Source of the DNA: a virus | Virus record (IMG/VR): IMGVR_UViG_3300046536_000256 | Coordinates: 169,284 to 233,283 of that record | DNA length: 64,000 nt | Reading direction: 5' to 3' (one strand) | Shown here: positions 8,472-36,123 of the stretch, piece by piece | Layout: each line of letters opens with the position of its first letter | Numbering within the stretch: position 1 is the stretch's first letter | Position numbers and translations under genes: made by a program | The notes under the pieces: generated by a model | What the model saw: the letters and a program-made list of their open reading frames with translations, nothing else | Databases searched by the model: none | What the model was told of the DNA's origin: nothing

Positions 8472-9356
8472 TTAAGCGGCGATGACACGGTTAACAGTGT
8501 CCATGCCCTGGTAATATACGTCGTACAGACGAGAGTTGATCTCACCCACGGTGATCTGACCGTCTTTGTCGTAGTCGAAACCACAGTTCTGACGATAGCC
8601 GGTAGTCTCGACATCTTTGCGGAAGATAACCGTGTCCGCTGTCTTACCGACGGCTGCCGGATAGAAGATGGTGAGATAGAAGTCTTCCAGTTGGGAGAAG
8701 ACCTTACCGCGCTTTGCCCACAGGTCGAAGTAGGCGAAGACCCACTTGAGCTGTTCGACCTGTGGCAAGACCCGCAATGCGGCTGTGCTGGTGTTGAGAT
8801 CGCCGGCGGCCATGTCGCCGAACTGGATCAGACCGAAGTACTTGGCACCTGCGCCGTTCTGAATAGTCGGGCTGAATGTACCACCCGTCTCGAAGCACAT
8901 GCACGACATCAACCAGTCGACAGCAGCATCTGGCCAGCCGCGCTGTTTACAACCAGCAATGACCGCGTCCAGAAACTCCTTCGACACCTTGGTGGACCAA
9001 GCAGCCTTATAAAGAGGCAAGCGGTTCTGTTGACGATAGGACTGGCACACTTGCTGAATTGCCGCAAGAGTGCCTGCCCCGAAGACACCGTCTACTTTAC
9101 CGGTGTACAAACCAGCAGCCTTCAACAGGTCCTGGAATTTCACAACAGCTTGGACCATTGCGTCACCAGGGATGGTGGAAGCCGGGATGCTAGGCAACAC
9201 ATTCCCGGTTTGTTGACGATAGAACGCCGATACCAAAGAGGTAGCCGCGGTCATGCTTCCTGGACCCACTTGACCATCAATTGCGCCAGTGTAAACCCGG
9301 GTCTCTTTCATCAGCACTTGCAAGCTGCGCAACCCGTTGAAGTTTCTGTAGTTCAT
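8472..9356 (-). CDS. Modular endolysin: two peptidoglycan-binding repeats plus transglycosylase domain
   Basis: 294 residues from the ATG at 9356, which has GAGGTAAG upstream and begins two bases after the beta stop. Residues 5-45 and 65-108 are two PG_binding_1-type repeats (TRVYTGAIDGQVGPGSM and AGLYTGKVDGVFGAGTL). The catalytic part begins near residue 120; CMCFETGGTFSP holds the likely catalytic Glu156 and AKYFGLIQFG follows, as in the lytic transglycosylase endolysins of phiKZ and EL. It cleaves the glycan backbone of murein at lysis; there is no signal peptide, so a holin or other export is needed. The C-terminus has an EF-hand-like loop (Asp261, Asp263, Asp265, Gly266, Glu272), unusual for an endolysin. 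Confidence 0.88.
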   Translation of the reverse strand: MNYRNFNGLRSLQVLMKETRVYTGAIDGQVGPGSMTAATSLVSAFYRQQTGNVLPSIPASTIPGDAMVQAVVKFQDLLKAAGLYTGKVDGVFGAGTLAAIQQVCQSYRQQNRLPLYKAAWSTKVSKEFLDAVIAGCKQRGWPDAAVDWLMSCMCFETGGTFSPTIQNGAGAKYFGLIQFGDMAAGDLNTSTAALRVLPQVEQLKWVFAYFDLWAKRGKVFSQLEDFYLTIFYPAAVGKTADTVIFRKDVETTGYRQNCGFDYDKDGQITVGEINSRLYDVYYQGMDTVNRVIAA

Positions 9357-9357
9357 T

Positions 9358-12300
9358 TTACTTACCTCGATAAACAGCGACGGCCAATTTGGTGAATGCA
9401 ATGGTGAGTTCATTACTAACCAGTTTGTTCCGGAAGCTCAACACCATTCGGTTGAACATACCTTTCAAACTGGTCTTGATCAGAACCTCGCGACCATCTT
9501 CAGTCATCAGGGGTCTGTGCATGATCCGACCCACGGTGCCTTTCATTTGGTTCGCGATGACGTATTTGTCAGCGTTTGTACTTGGATCCATGGATTCAAC
9601 CAAGATGGTAATGAACGCTTTACCCGGCGACAGAATCGGCTTGTTAACGTTCAAACTGTTAGACACAGCACCCTTGGTAACATCAGAACCTTCGATCTCG
9701 GCTTTCTTCTTGCGGGCTTTGTCTTGAGCGTTGATGAACTTCCTCACGCTGTCCGACATTTCTTCAAGCGGTGAGTTGTACACCACCTCGATTTTGATGA
9801 CCTTACCGTGATGCTTGGAACGCACTTGTTTGATACCCAGTTTGTTCACTTCGGCAATGAGCACGGCTTCAGCAACATCCGCCACCAAGTGGGCGTCTTC
9901 AACGTTGCATAAAATCGAGTCATAGTCAACAGAATCACCCACTTTGACTTCCAAGCTGATGTTCTGAACCACATCGATCGCAAAGCGCATCCCCTTGATG
10001 TACGGAGTCACACCTTCCATTGCCAGTTCTTTCGCAATAGCAATGGAGTCTTCGTACACGTCTTGGTCTTCCACCATGGCAATCCGCACCATGCGACCCG
10101 CTTTCCAAGCCACTTGACCCGGGCAGAAAGGATCACGAGCAAACCACTGCTCATCCCAACCCAAGACATCGCCTTTCTGGAAAGTATCGCCAACCTTCAG
10201 GTCAGTGATCCGGGTATGACGATGGTACTCACCCGCAGCCTCACCGATTTCCAACCCCAGAGGGTAGACGTCAGTGGTCCCGTCCTTATAGGTCACTCTG
10301 AGAGCGTCCTCAGCGAGCTCTGTGACCTTCCCTGCATCAGCAGCAACCTTGCTGTACAGATCAGACGTACGGTGCGCTACGACGTTCTCGTAGCCTGTAC
10401 GGAGGATGTTCGGCGTGTAGTTCATTGCACTGACCGCCTGACTCGCTTGAGTCGAGGTAAAGGTCGACCGTTTAGGGTCATCGTGCCCAACGCCGTACTG
10501 AAGGTTACCCGTCACCGATACCAGCCCGGAATTGGACCCCTTGTCATCCTTAGCGATGTTACCCCGGAAGTCTTTAATGCGAGGGTCAGAAGAAAGGTAG
10601 GTTACGAAGCCTACTTTACCGCTGTCCTTGTTCGCCTCCGAGATGACCCCCTTGTACGTGTCAAGTTGTTGCCGGGCGCGCTTGACCATGGTGATCTCGC
10701 TACGACCGCCGACCCCACCAAAGGTAACCTCTTCCTGATCCTTCAACTGGTGAATCGGGTTCACCTCTTCCACCAAGTTCACCGAGGTATCGGTAATGAT
10801 GTTGAGGATGACCGCTTCAGGATTGATGTCAATGGAGTGCTTGCGCTCTTTGCCTTTGTTCCGGTACATACGGATGGCTTTAACCATCTCCCGGTACACA
10901 TGGCCCGCAAACCGCTCATACCCAACAATGCGTTGTTCGTCCAGCTCAACCTCATGACGAGAGAAGTCCGTTTCCAGCAACTTCACCGCGTCAATCAGCA
11001 GGTAGTGGAACGAAGTCGCGTAGCCCAACCGCGCCAGCTCTTCCTTGGTCACCGGATCGATAAACAGGTCAAACAGGTTCTTCATTTCCTTGAACTGCTG
11101 CGGCTTAACCTTTGGATCGCCCATCAACGGAACCCAGATACCTTTCTCGTTGAGATCGGTACGACTGAAGTTGCTGATGTTGTTCAGCTTCGGCATGCCA
11201 CCAAAGATCAGACTGGCCAACTTCTCACGACGGTTAAAGATCAGGTACTCGTCGTTGAACGCGATCGCGTACTCATCCTCACTGAGCTTAGGACGGGTGC
11301 CCATCGGAACAGAGCGGGTAGTAGCCCCAGTAACCTCAATCAGTTTGTCAATACCGAAGTAGTAACACAGCACAACGCCCATAGGGAAGTAGTAACCGCT
11401 GATGTTGATCACGGCATACTCAATCGGCGCTTTCGCCGTAGAGACACCCATTAGGCCTTCCACGGTGTTGATCTCGGTGTCCCCTTGGAAGAGGTTACCG
11501 AAACTGTCCACCCACAGCGGCTGCTTGTCCTTCACCCCTACCAGGAAAGCATCTTTCTTGGTGTACTTCTTGAACTCAGGGTGTTGAGTCAGCAGATCGT
11601 CAATACGGAAGTCGAGGGTAATGTCCCCAACCGTGATGAACACAAACTTCTTGGCCAGAATGGAGTAAATGCGTGGCGACGTGTATTCAGCACTGTAACC
11701 TGAACCTTGGCTGTACGTCAGGAAGGCAGGACCACCTTCAGGCTTAATACCCCGAATACGAATCTGCTTCACCAACCACAGGCCGTAATCGTCCACCACC
11801 TTCTGACTACGCAGCACCATGAGCTTGCGGTCATAGTAGCTGGTCAAGGCGACCTTAAAGGCGTTGATCTTGCGGAGTGGCAGTTCCATGCGTTGCAGCT
11901 GCATGTGTTGCTTCACGCCGTCCACGGTAAAAGTCCCGTCCTTCTGCACTTTAGGCAAACGGATTTGGTGGGTGCTCTGCGTACCGTCCACAGGGTGCAA
12001 CTGGATACGCAGGACGTCGTACGAACCTTCAACCCCGGAGATCACTTCCTGCTTGTAGTCCGCCACAGCAACACCGGCGTTCTGAATGCCCACAACCATC
12101 TTGGCGATGTCTTTGTGCAGGAAGCGTTGAGCGTACTCTTGTTTCAACACGGCGGAACGACTGCGGAGCATGCTGTCGTCAAGAACGGTGATGAAGTTAC
12201 CCTCGATCTTACCGTCCAACGAATCGATCTCCTCAGGAGAGATCTGCATGAACTCCCCCAACGTCTGACCGTTGCCCATTTCGATGTGCTGGTACGCAGA

Positions 12301-13683
12301 CCCCTTACGCATGAAGAAGTTCTGTTCAGAGACCGTCAAGGAGCCATCACGAGCCCGTTCTTCCAGAGCCGCTTTAATACCAGCCTCAGGAGTAGGGAAT
12401 GCATCTTTCTTGGTAGAGATTTCCACCGTGGTGGTTTCTACTTCCAGCAGAGCATCGTCTACGTGACTTGTCCAATCCCCAGCAGCTTCATCAATTGGAT
12501 GTTCTGCCTCATCTCCTTGCCCTTCCACCAGTGGACTGTTATTTCCCTGGTGACTCCCGAAAACATCAAGGATGCTACGATCAACAGAATGATCATCCAC
12601 AGGCGCATGCGAGCCAGTAGGCGTGGCTGCTTTTCCGTCACCGGATGCTCGTCCTTGCCCTTGCGCAGCTCCCTTCTCTCCTTGATCCACTGAAGCGTCG
12701 TTTTCCGCTCCTGGGGTTGGGGTTCCTGTTCCATCTTTCTTCTCCTCGTCAGAAATCTCCTTCTCGCTGACCGACCCACGCACTAGGTTCATCAACGCCA
12801 AGTAGAACCGCTTGGTAACGTTGATGCGTTTAGGCGAAACCCCTTCAGGTTTTTGTGCGCCTTCCTTGACGTGTGTGTCCAGTTCTTCGAGCCAGGACTT
12901 GATCGTTTTGATGTTGATGATCAAAGCCTTGCTGTTGGCGGTAAAGATAAAGTGAAGGTCGTCTTCCGCCTGAGGGGTTAACTTACCAAACAAACTGTAC
13001 TCATACTCGCCTTGCAGGAACGCCAACAAATCTAGCAGCCAGTAGCACCCTTCGGCTTTAGTTACCCGAAGAGACTGGTTACTAGGAACCGGAAGACCCT
13101 CTTTAAAGCTCCCAATATACTTTGCATAGTCGACCATCAAATCTTTGTAAGAAGGAATGTTAATAGGCAGTTCAAACCGCAGGAACTGCTTACGTGTTTG
13201 CGCGCGCTCAGCCTCGGTGTTCATGCCTTCAACCAGCATGTTCAACCGGTTGTAATGAATCTCGAAGTTGACAAAGGTAGCAGCACGCTGCGCCCAGGTC
13301 TTATCGGCAATGCCGTAGTTCTTGACGATCAGCACATCGTTGCGGCGATAAACCGTATTGATGTCTTTGGTCCAATTGTAGTTGTAGTGACTGGCGCGGT
13401 AAGACTGAATCGCCTTCTTGACATCAAACGCCAACACACGGCCATGCCCCATCACCGGAGTGAAACGAGGCACGAACTCAATGAACACATCTTCAGGGAA
13501 GTTCGAGATGAAAGCTTCCGACACAGAAGGACCAAACTCTGTAGCCAGCTTCGGCACGAAATGCACCAAGGCTTGCTTCGGCATGACAATCTCGCTCACG
13601 CCGATAAAGTTAGGCTCCATGAGCTCCTGTTTCTTCCGCTGTACAAACAGTTTAAAGAACTCACTGTACGTAAGAAGCCGCAT
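9358..13683 (-). CDS. Virion RNA polymerase beta subunit (phiKZ gp178-like)
   Basis: 1441 residues, ATG at 13683 with AGGAGT upstream. The C-terminal third has cellular beta-subunit landmarks in order: FQKGDVLGWDEQWFA, then EDQDVYEDSIAIA (like NFEDSI of bacterial beta), KHHGKVIKIEV, and ADKYVIANQMKGTVG (like the GDKxxxRHGNKG lobe). The chain therefore looks like a complete beta. Residues about 305-405 form a hydrophilic Gly/Glu/Ser/Thr/Pro-rich linker, and another gene is nested there. In phiKZ the virion RNAP is packaged, injected and transcribes early genes without host sigma factors. It is followed two bases later by the endolysin and preceded two bases earlier by beta-prime, so all three share a late message. 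Confidence 0.9.
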   Translation of the reverse strand: MRLLTYSEFFKLFVQRKKQELMEPNFIGVSEIVMPKQALVHFVPKLATEFGPSVSEAFISNFPEDVFIEFVPRFTPVMGHGRVLAFDVKKAIQSYRASHYNYNWTKDINTVYRRNDVLIVKNYGIADKTWAQRAATFVNFEIHYNRLNMLVEGMNTEAERAQTRKQFLRFELPINIPSYKDLMVDYAKYIGSFKEGLPVPSNQSLRVTKAEGCYWLLDLLAFLQGEYEYSLFGKLTPQAEDDLHFIFTANSKALIINIKTIKSWLEELDTHVKEGAQKPEGVSPKRINVTKRFYLALMNLVRGSVSEKEISDEEKKDGTGTPTPGAENDASVDQGEKGAAQGQGRASGDGKAATPTGSHAPVDDHSVDRSILDVFGSHQGNNSPLVEGQGDEAEHPIDEAAGDWTSHVDDALLEVETTTVEISTKKDAFPTPEAGIKAALEERARDGSLTVSEQNFFMRKGSAYQHIEMGNGQTLGEFMQISPEEIDSLDGKIEGNFITVLDDSMLRSRSAVLKQEYAQRFLHKDIAKMVVGIQNAGVAVADYKQEVISGVEGSYDVLRIQLHPVDGTQSTHQIRLPKVQKDGTFTVDGVKQHMQLQRMELPLRKINAFKVALTSYYDRKLMVLRSQKVVDDYGLWLVKQIRIRGIKPEGGPAFLTYSQGSGYSAEYTSPRIYSILAKKFVFITVGDITLDFRIDDLLTQHPEFKKYTKKDAFLVGVKDKQPLWVDSFGNLFQGDTEINTVEGLMGVSTAKAPIEYAVINISGYYFPMGVVLCYYFGIDKLIEVTGATTRSVPMGTRPKLSEDEYAIAFNDEYLIFNRREKLASLIFGGMPKLNNISNFSRTDLNEKGIWVPLMGDPKVKPQQFKEMKNLFDLFIDPVTKEELARLGYATSFHYLLIDAVKLLETDFSRHEVELDEQRIVGYERFAGHVYREMVKAIRMYRNKGKERKHSIDINPEAVILNIITDTSVNLVEEVNPIHQLKDQEEVTFGGVGGRSEITMVKRARQQLDTYKGVISEANKDSGKVGFVTYLSSDPRIKDFRGNIAKDDKGSNSGLVSVTGNLQYGVGHDDPKRSTFTSTQASQAVSAMNYTPNILRTGYENVVAHRTSDLYSKVAADAGKVTELAEDALRVTYKDGTTDVYPLGLEIGEAAGEYHRHTRITDLKVGDTFQKGDVLGWDEQWFARDPFCPGQVAWKAGRMVRIAMVEDQDVYEDSIAIAKELAMEGVTPYIKGMRFAIDVVQNISLEVKVGDSVDYDSILCNVEDAHLVADVAEAVLIAEVNKLGIKQVRSKHHGKVIKIEVVYNSPLEEMSDSVRKFINAQDKARKKKAEIEGSDVTKGAVSNSLNVNKPILSPGKAFITILVESMDPSTNADKYVIANQMKGTVGRIMHRPLMTEDGREVLIKTSLKGMFNRMVLSFRNKLVSNELTIAFTKLAVAVYRGK
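12459..12734 (-). CDS. Nested membrane-protein gene inside RNAP beta linker
   Basis: A 91-codon frame in a different phase from the beta gene. Its ATG at 12734 has an almost ideal ribosome binding site (GAGGAGAAGAAAG directly upstream). The product has a strongly charged N-terminus (residues 1-44, many Arg/Lys), one hydrophobic segment at residues 45-60 (MRLWMIILLIVASLMF context) and a 30-residue tail with HWW and Lys/Arg. Positive-inside favours N-in, C-out topology. The overlapped beta residues are exactly the low-complexity linker, where constraint is weak, as expected for overprinting. It could be a lysis accessory (spanin- or holin-like), but there is no homology to show it, and it may be chance. 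Confidence 0.5.
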   Translation of the reverse strand: MEQEPQPQERKTTLQWIKERRELRKGKDEHPVTEKQPRLLARMRLWMIILLIVASLMFSGVTREITVHWWKGKEMRQNIQLMKLLGIGQVT

Positions 13684-13685
13684 TG

Positions 13686-15302
13686 TTACTCCTCAAGACC
13701 GCTCGTAGCAGCCTTCAACATAAACAGAATCGGTTCGTTGACAGGGTCATAAAGGAAACGACCACTGCCACTGATGTAGTACTCGCGCTTACCGAACAAA
13801 GCATTGACTTCAGTCTTGCTGTCCTCGGCGTTCACGCTGTTGCTGTTCAACTGGTCACCGTCGTGGTCGGAGTCATAGCCCGCTTCACGAGAAGGGTCAA
13901 CCGACATGGCATCGAAGTAATCGGGGGTTTCTGTCCGATGTGGGTAACGGGTACAGGTTTCCAGCACTTCCCAATCGGGAGTACGGATGGTCCGAGTCTT
14001 TGCGCCTGTGATGGTCACTAGGTTCACCCGCGCCGGCACGATGGAACCGATACCAATGATCGGGTAACGTGTCTGTTGAGTGATCTGATCCATGACGGTT
14101 TGTTGGCACGACAGGTAGAACAGCTCCATGTACGTGATGGGTTTGACGAACTTACGATCCTTACCTTCAGGCAGGTCGTTGATGTCATAAAGCACACAGA
14201 CATCTTCGCCATCATCATAAACAAGGGCTAGGTAGTGTTTCTCTACCACGATCTCTTTGTTGCGCAAGTGCACGTTGGAGAAGCCGTTGAAGAGTTTGTT
14301 CAACCCGGTAAAGGTTGACCATTTCTCCACCACACTCGGGGCCACTTCGACGTACTCGTATTCGAGGGTCTTGGTGTTCACCAACTTCACTGTCTGCGAA
14401 CCTGGGGTAAAGATGTTCTGCAAGTACTTGCTCAGGAGAGCATGCACACAGACGTACTGGTTGTTCAGCAGCGCCTGATACAGACCGATGTCCGTCGAGT
14501 TAGGGTTAACTCCGTTAGGCTTGAACAAGTCAGCCCGGGAGACCTTACGCGCTGTAATAACGTTACGAGTCCCCGACACCACACCACGCGTTGACAGCCG
14601 CTTCTGAAACAAGCCACCTTTACCTTCAGTCAAACCGAAGAGGTACTGGTCGATGTCGTTGAATGCACTTTGCAAGCCCCAACGCACGTTGTCGTACAGT
14701 GGGTTCTCGGCATCCCGTTGACTTCCTAGGCTAATGACCCGGGTCTTGAAGATCAACTTACGGTACAGTTCGGTGATCTCGGGTTCAGTCGGAGTGCCGT
14801 TAGCTTGGAACTGAATGTCCCGTAAACCAGCCGGAATCACCAAGACCTTATTGCTCACCGAGATGTCGCGGAATTGGGTAACCAATTTCACCCGCTGCTT
14901 ACGTTTATAGGAATCGGTGCTGGCCGGGACGATTTCGTAGAAGTGACGCATAAAGAAAGCGAAACCGGTTTCACCGTCCAGCAGGTTGGATTTTATGAAA
15001 TCCTTCGCCTCTGGATCCCATACCGCGTATTCCGTTCCTTTGAGAATACTGAGGTACAAAGATTTTATTTGTGTCAGTGCTTTGAAGTAGGTTGGGTTGA
15101 AGAGCCCGAGCTTTGTGTCAATGTACGCTTCAGTCTTATCGCGCTCTTTACTACCCAGCTTACCGAAGATCTCTAAGGAGTACAGACCCTCGTCGTTCAG
15201 GTTCTGGGTCATCCCTTCAAAGGCGTCCGTAGACGTGACTTCTTTGAAGACACCCGGCACGATAGACTTGGGGTCTAGCAGTTTAAGGTTTGTGGGTTTC
15301 AT
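13686..15302 (-). CDS. Virion RNA polymerase beta-prime N-terminal subunit (phiKZ gp180-like)
   Basis: 538 residues. GKGGLFQKRLSTRGVVSGTRNVITA resembles the conserved GRFRxNLxGKRVxxSGRxVI region of beta-prime when read with gaps. GYDSDHDGDQ (Asp479, Asp481, Asp483) is the NADFDGD metal-binding triad of the active centre, with Asn replaced by Asp. The chain ends about 50 residues later, so the trigger loop and C-terminal parts must come from other genes outside the window, as in the split beta-prime of phiKZ-like virion polymerases. It is transcribed away from the 15332 gene; the 29-base gap between the divergent starts includes a ribosome binding site for each, and any promoters must overlap them. 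Confidence 0.88.
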   Translation of the reverse strand: MKPTNLKLLDPKSIVPGVFKEVTSTDAFEGMTQNLNDEGLYSLEIFGKLGSKERDKTEAYIDTKLGLFNPTYFKALTQIKSLYLSILKGTEYAVWDPEAKDFIKSNLLDGETGFAFFMRHFYEIVPASTDSYKRKQRVKLVTQFRDISVSNKVLVIPAGLRDIQFQANGTPTEPEITELYRKLIFKTRVISLGSQRDAENPLYDNVRWGLQSAFNDIDQYLFGLTEGKGGLFQKRLSTRGVVSGTRNVITARKVSRADLFKPNGVNPNSTDIGLYQALLNNQYVCVHALLSKYLQNIFTPGSQTVKLVNTKTLEYEYVEVAPSVVEKWSTFTGLNKLFNGFSNVHLRNKEIVVEKHYLALVYDDGEDVCVLYDINDLPEGKDRKFVKPITYMELFYLSCQQTVMDQITQQTRYPIIGIGSIVPARVNLVTITGAKTRTIRTPDWEVLETCTRYPHRTETPDYFDAMSVDPSREAGYDSDHDGDQLNSNSVNAEDSKTEVNALFGKREYYISGSGRFLYDPVNEPILFMLKAATSGLEE

Positions 15303-35652: not shown

Positions 35653-36123
35653 TTACCGGGGTAACTTTTTAAGGCCGCCCGGTGCGCACATTTTCAGGAG
35701 TACGTCGTTATTTATTTTCAGCCGCTCTGACTCAGCCAACGATCGCACTAAATATGGACGCAAGAAATTATTCTCGTCGTTCAACTTAATGTTGCTTTGG
35801 AACAACAGCAGGTTCTCCTGCTTCACCAACCTCAGTTGATTGCTCAAGCTGTCGTTGATACGTACGAAGGCCTTTAATGGACCACCTTCCGTGGGGTCAA
35901 AGAGCAGGTTCATCTTAGCGACGCCTGCCTCCATGTCGGATAATTCAACGCGTAGGTTAATGTTGGCCATGGATAAGCCAATCGCGGCCCAAGCCAAAAT
36001 AGCAATAAGGAAGACGGCAGACTTTAAAGCGGACGTAAGTTGTTCTTCGACCGTCTCTCCCTTTACAAAACGCAAGACAAATTCTATGAATCTGTCGGCT
36101 AGCTCCTTCAAGAGCCCAAACAT
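35653..36123 (-). CDS. Single-pass membrane protein with coiled coil (i-spanin-like topology)
   Basis: 156 residues, ATG at 36123 with AAGGAT upstream. Cytoplasmic N-terminus of about 33 residues, one membrane segment at residues 34-53 (AVFLIAILAWAAIGLSMA), then a long heptad-like, Asn/Leu-rich domain (about 90-145) and a C-terminal Cys. This is the layout of an Rz-type inner-membrane spanin, though the N-terminal part is longer than usual and no outer-membrane lipoprotein partner is seen embedded in it. Divergent from the structural gene at 36156. Function is inference. Confidence 0.7.
   Translation of the reverse strand: MFGLLKELADRFIEFVLRFVKGETVEEQLTSALKSAVFLIAILAWAAIGLSMANINLRVELSDMEAGVAKMNLLFDPTEGGPLKAFVRINDSLSNQLRLVKQENLLLFQSNIKLNDENNFLRPYLVRSLAESERLKINNDVLLKMCAPGGLKKLPR

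Follow-up and report, generated by a model that had tools for sequence, protein, structure and literature searches.

A putative membrane-protein gene overprinted on the virion RNA polymerase beta gene in a clade of phiKZ-related jumbo phages

Does a 91-codon open frame lying out of phase within the gene for a virion RNA polymerase (RNAP) subunit encode a protein and, if so, what would this protein do? The question is raised by a stretch of 64,000 nucleotides (hereafter, the window) from a 233,283-base IMG/VR virus record, in which the features that bear on it, all on the minus strand, are as follows.

8472-9356, minus strand: endolysin gene, directly downstream of beta (PG_binding_1; start set by comparing relatives)
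9358-13683, minus strand: virion RNAP beta gene, the container of the nested gene (phrog_3148 over residues 4-1441)
12459-12734, minus strand: nested gene for a predicted 91-residue single-pass membrane protein (conserved frame and synonymous constraint)
12552-12608, minus strand: hydrophobic segment of the nested product, residues 43-61, with an S-L-M-F-S small-xxx-small stretch (Kyte-Doolittle)
12742-12746, minus strand: AGGAG, possible ribosome binding site with a 7-base spacer, by itself not above chance
13686-15302, minus strand: second RNAP subunit gene, directly upstream of beta (phrog_2986)

The container gene encodes a protein of 1441 residues that matches phrog_3148, the phage RNAP beta subunit, from end to end (E=0) and is homologous over its full length to the virion RNAP beta of phiKZ-related phages. 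In a tblastn search with beta, the best public relatives belong to the Pseudomonas phage EL group (59.5%), followed by Erwinia phage RisingSun (57.5%). The nested frame consists of 91 codons and a TAG, begins with the ATG at 12734-12732, is in frame +1 of the beta gene and covers beta codons 317-408. The initial annotation had described a 91-codon frame out of phase with beta and a single transmembrane segment in its product; the coordinates, the ATG and the position inside beta are all as claimed, and the one segment, at residues 43-61, has a Kyte-Doolittle 19-residue mean of 2.11.

The beta linker over which the frame lies is rich in acidic residues, and the open frame, the basic N-terminus and the Shine-Dalgarno sequence are cheap by-products of this composition. 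When the window beta is recoded synonymously at random, 76% of the trials keep a +1 frame of 70 or more codons open, and 15% yield such a frame with a hydrophobic segment (Kyte-Doolittle at least 1.5); the respective means over 50 clade betas are 62% and 16%, and the linkers of betas without the nested gene are sometimes open too, so that openness alone was rejected as evidence. The Shine-Dalgarno sequence, previously rated as very strong, is indeed present but fails as support for a gene and was rejected in this capacity: matches of at least five bases precede 12 of the 32 distinct starts compared with 12.7 expected, that is, occur at the chance level, and are found in 23% of the synonymous recodings for the window (matches of at least four bases precede 27 of 32 starts, with 18.4 expected). 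The charged N-terminus fares similarly, in that the basic stretch exists but, as a by-product of the acidic beta linker, carries little weight. The recoding values and the matches of five or more bases are in line with a chance open frame, in which the acidic linker would give a basic +1 frame and a short conserved beta motif would supply the hydrophobic stretch. A single case of this kind is not convincing, and the frame rises above the chance expectation because of its conservation, a deficit of synonymous changes and a constraint that starts at the ATG.

The conservation is extensive within one group of phages. Stops in close relatives had been named as an observation that would count against the frame; it is open, in the same phase and at the same place over the varying beta linker, in 50 of the 50 distinct clade betas, and in 49 of these it carries a hydrophobic segment over the threshold (the value for L029, 1.44, is just below 1.5). 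Among the more distant betas, 0 of 23 have a frame with such a segment; these two counts were made after dropping repeats (L010, L012, L028, L037, L039, L042, L046 and L054). Read directly, the frame is present in 9/9 betas of the first set, in 41/60 IMG/VR loci and in 8/12 further public phages, being absent in RAY, LucasX, FLC6 and KpHz_2. The 60 IMG/VR loci are those that could be read among 68, the partial ones (L022, L031, L033, L038, L047, L051, L056 and L062) being left out, and all 19 that lack the frame are at 34% beta identity or less. When all phage records were searched with the 91-residue query, the only matches were four weak ones from two phages with two records apiece (E 0.1 to 0.5), all inside RNAP beta genes and about 1 kb from the beta start, the same as in the window. 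The nested proteins have in common a basic stretch followed by a membrane segment whose last residue is F or L, an S or T after this segment (39/39 members) with a K or R four residues on (38/39), and an E/D-x-R-E motif in the tail. In the beta frame, the linker itself contains a motif (window 12540-12620, minus strand), S-I-L-D-V-F, with S-L-A-D-L-Y or similar in relatives; it overlaps the nested membrane segment, and look-alikes are seen in some betas without the nested gene.

The synonymous-site test that the initial annotation had proposed gives a strong signal that is limited to the overlap. For codons with an unchanged beta residue in 15 phylogenetically separate pairs, there are 82 synonymous beta changes in the overlap compared with 311.9 expected (Z -17.1). 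Windows of 41 codons with midpoints at codons 331-391 have ratios of 0.14 to 0.25, and in no other part of the beta gene does Z fall below -4.4. Between the window and locus L011, the overlap contains 0 synonymous changes, with 21.7 expected. In this pair, the variation at beta bases 1, 2 and 3 is 0.261, 0.098 and 0.054 within the overlap, where the beta first base (the nested third) is the most variable and the beta third (the nested second) the least, and shows the reverse pattern outside (0.077, 0.045 and 0.312). The protein sequence of beta, in contrast, is less conserved here, with identity over the pairs of 0.30-0.76 in the overlap compared with 0.74-0.94 outside. The constraint has edges at the start and near the stop: the ratio falls from 0.82 over the five codons that precede the predicted ATG to 0.22 over the five that begin with it; near the other end, it rises from 0.33 (codons ten to six from the stop) to 1.05 in the final five, the last nested residues thus being free (12 of the 15 pairs; the three from the pEt-SU/N1M2/AH04 subclade, in which the start is unclear, were left out). 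No comparable trough was found in ten control pairs from clades without the nested gene, two of which are nearly identical and say little. A mild dip was seen at beta codons 400-440 in one close pair without the nested gene, L050/L064 (e.g. 3 vs 12), and is weaker in two other pairs of the same clade.

The synonymous deficit, the shifted codon-position pattern, the edges and the controls without a trough are, taken together, strong comparative proof that the nested frame is translated into a protein. The same features speak against a chance frame, which is very improbable and could be upheld only by assuming a non-coding element of exactly the same extent and phase. The nested frame is almost certainly a real overprinted protein-coding gene under strong purifying selection, and the original proposal of an overprinted membrane-protein gene over a variable beta linker is thus borne out by the relatives, the synonymous constraint and its sharp boundaries.

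The product is probably a small single-pass membrane protein with the N-terminus inside and the C-terminus outside. The mean net charge of the 39 members is +6.7 before the membrane segment compared with +2.0 after it, and the N-terminal side has the higher charge in 31 of the 39, several of the exceptions coming from the subclade with the unclear start; in the window protein itself, the charge is even, +3 on each side. The AlphaFold2 model, of low confidence (pLDDT 66, pTM 0.28), consists of helices at residues 13-26 and 45-84. Cysteines are lacking in the window protein and in 32 of the 39 members, the other seven having one each. Two spanin assignments were rejected, that of an outer-membrane spanin (Rz1-like) because there is no lipobox cysteine in the window protein, and that of an inner-membrane spanin (Rz-like) because the tail after the segment, of about 30 residues in the window protein, is too short for a long periplasmic coiled coil.

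The distribution of the nested gene across the betas compared places it in one clade of phiKZ-related jumbo phages, to which it appears to be confined. A quick beta tree of 55 rows, from which the linker columns were excluded, groups the 35 nested rows in a single clade (SH-aLRT 100), with RAY as its neighbour; the branches around RAY are long, which makes its exact place unsure. The simplest reading of the tree is one gain and no loss among the 35 nested rows, and the gene would have been gained once in the clade or else lost in the sister lineage (RAY). EL and OBP are counted among the chimallin-encoding phages (PMC10299810), and the clade therefore lies among relatives of nucleus-forming phages.

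A standalone homologue was not found when profile A2 was compared with 28 records: no match in the 18 records without the nested gene was better than E 0.1, whereas the nested copy was recovered in 10/10 nested phages given, with E 2.2e-20 or better. A second weak match was seen in pEt-SU (E 0.06), and in G000 no copy other than the nested one was found. Comparison of the 39 members with Pfam, PHROGs and NCBIfam identified no fitting family and no holin family; the lone SieB match (E 0.16, one of the 39) is noise. Because neither a standalone relative nor a known family was found, overprinting appears more likely as the origin than capture. This would be a gene born by overprinting, a clean case with a place in the phylogeny and 50 sequences available for tests, and it would have arisen in a large dsDNA virus, for which genome compression offers no obvious explanation. 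The initial annotation had regarded overprinting inside a virion polymerase gene as undescribed, which agrees with the open literature (no description of a gene nested inside an RNA polymerase gene was found in open-access papers, a search that left most subscription journals uncovered) and with 16 public records in which no gene is annotated at this place, namely, those of EL, RisingSun, pEt-SU, AH04, Miami, pTD1, OBP, N1M2, D9, CF8, AhC3_1, FishSpeaker, Sureiya, SXP01, Survivor and PS1. Well studied phages such as EL, OBP, RisingSun and Miami thus carry a conserved gene that is absent from the annotations of the records viewed, and changes in the beta linker of the clade phages affect two genes together. 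Having been kept by the relatives, the nested gene is probably important to the clade viruses, perhaps in bursting the cell.

A part in lysis, which the initial annotation had offered as a possibility, is plausible and draws indirect support from gene order. A homologous endolysin is encoded directly after beta in 48/48 nested loci and in 0/19 loci without the nested gene, a count over 67 rows that includes some repeats of one phage and leaves out L001, L002 and the twelve further public loci. The idea that the nested gene and the endolysin always go together was rejected on account of RAY, which has a homologous endolysin (36.8% identity, 3e-42) right after beta yet no nested frame; the 48 to 0 split is therefore in effect one event, and RAY must manage without the nested protein. 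The nested gene and the endolysin gene are about 3.1 kb apart and do not adjoin. EL188 and OBPgp279, the enzymes encoded directly after beta in EL and OBP of the same clade, have measured muralytic activity (PMC3352856); they are soluble enzymes, and neighbours, not homologues, of the nested protein. No strong N-terminal hydrophobic segment was found in the endolysins of the window and EL, so that an inner-membrane partner is to be expected, and the nested protein is a concrete candidate for opening the inner membrane. The endolysin open frame, 8472-9413, has an N-terminal extension that overlaps the end of beta (9354-9413, minus strand), but in relatives the endolysin begins with the M of MNYR, a position that corresponds to 9356 in the window and is probably the real start. 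The endolysin of AhC3_1 (L085:6751-8676), 641 residues long, matches that of the window at both ends and has an insertion of about 360 residues between these ends, with a weak LAGLIDADG_3 match (E 0.0038, below the cut-off), perhaps an intein.

Another membrane protein is encoded elsewhere in the window, at 35653-36123 on the minus strand: this protein of 156 residues (phrog_18283) has a single membrane segment and probably a coiled-coil tail, resembles an i-spanin or another lysis membrane protein and is present in 9/10 nested phages and in 0/6 records without the nested gene that were searched. No lipobox partner frame was seen beside its gene. Two-component spanins are listed for EL and OBP (PMC6139136), and the word ‘holin' is absent from a jumbo-phage review on a word search (PMC13282480).

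The best overall explanation, tentative as it is, combines an overprinted gene, an internal start and a holin-like role in lysis. Ribosomes initiating within the beta message would make the nested protein, its basic N-terminus would remain inside and one helix would cross the inner membrane, where the small-xxx-small stretch (S-L-M-F-S) might aid self-association, with the short tail and its E/D-x-R-E motif located outside. Acting late, in the manner of a class III holin, it would release or time the soluble endolysin of the next gene on that strand, which would couple lysis to virion polymerase production. The action in lysis is a candidate role suggested by position and is put forward with some reserve: no holin family is matched, RAY has the endolysin and lacks the nested frame, and the single-pass phrog_18283 protein could be the lysis membrane protein instead. 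It is rather unlikely that the nested protein is the unrecognised holin of the whole clade, having arisen a single time by overprinting of the polymerase linker. If it were, the amount of the lysis trigger would follow the amount of virion polymerase made, a cargo that each new particle must carry, and would serve as a clock linking burst time to virion production.

A real nested protein could instead serve the virion or membrane steps of early infection, for example, it might be packaged or injected together with the virion polymerase and anchor this enzyme or the incoming genome at the inner membrane. The location within a virion polymerase subunit gene, the retention in 35/35 nested tree rows and the packaging of vRNAP subunits in the capsids of RAY and relatives (PMC10299810) all fit such a role; relatives with the same polymerase, however, lack the nested gene, which is therefore not needed for virion polymerase function in general, and this role is rather unlikely. 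A further possibility, somewhat unlikely as well, although less so than the virion role, is another purpose at the host envelope, such as superinfection exclusion, lysis inhibition (as an antiholin) or counter-defence. Small single-pass membrane proteins often serve host-envelope purposes such as superinfection exclusion. Lysis inhibition, by an unclear mechanism, has been described for phiKZ (PMC7909554), although phages of the phiKZ type lack the nested gene. Most accessory host-directed genes are not kept in the way seen here, across hosts of many genera and without loss in 35 rows, and there is no family match to support such a purpose.

With respect to the preferred role in lysis, the nested protein can be compared with several known systems. 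Class III holins, for example, T of phage T4, have a single transmembrane domain and N-in/C-out topology; the nested protein is similar in having one membrane helix, a basic N-terminus predicted to be inside and an endolysin encoded nearby, and differs from T in its much shorter tail and the lack of a sequence match to any holin family. Because holin families are many and unrelated, this lack makes membership in class III less likely but does not bear on the way of working. The lysis protein E of phiX174, also in the membrane and about 90 residues long, is likewise encoded out of frame inside an unrelated gene, D; its membrane segment, however, is N-terminal and it acts by inhibiting MraY, whereas the segment of the nested protein is central, and the phiX174 genome is tiny compared with the giant genome of the window phage. 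Rz1 in Rz exemplifies the embedded two-component spanins, which are commonly missed by annotation, and Rz1 of lambda is, like the nested protein, a small envelope protein encoded wholly within frame +1 of another gene (PMC6139136). Lambda Rz1, however, is an outer-membrane lipoprotein encoded inside another lysis gene, whereas the nested protein has no lipobox cysteine and one membrane helix, and its container is an RNA polymerase gene.

Some other features of the beta locus are worth recording. In EL (L001), CF8 (L084), FishSpeaker (L086) and PS1 (L090), an insertion at a similar position divides beta into two parts, and in EL and FishSpeaker, an annotated HNH endonuclease gene lies between the upstream RNAP gene and beta. 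Antisense to beta, the plus strand of the window contains two long open frames, 10063-11454 (463 codons) and 11707-12693 (328 codons), which are probably by-products of the codon use of beta.
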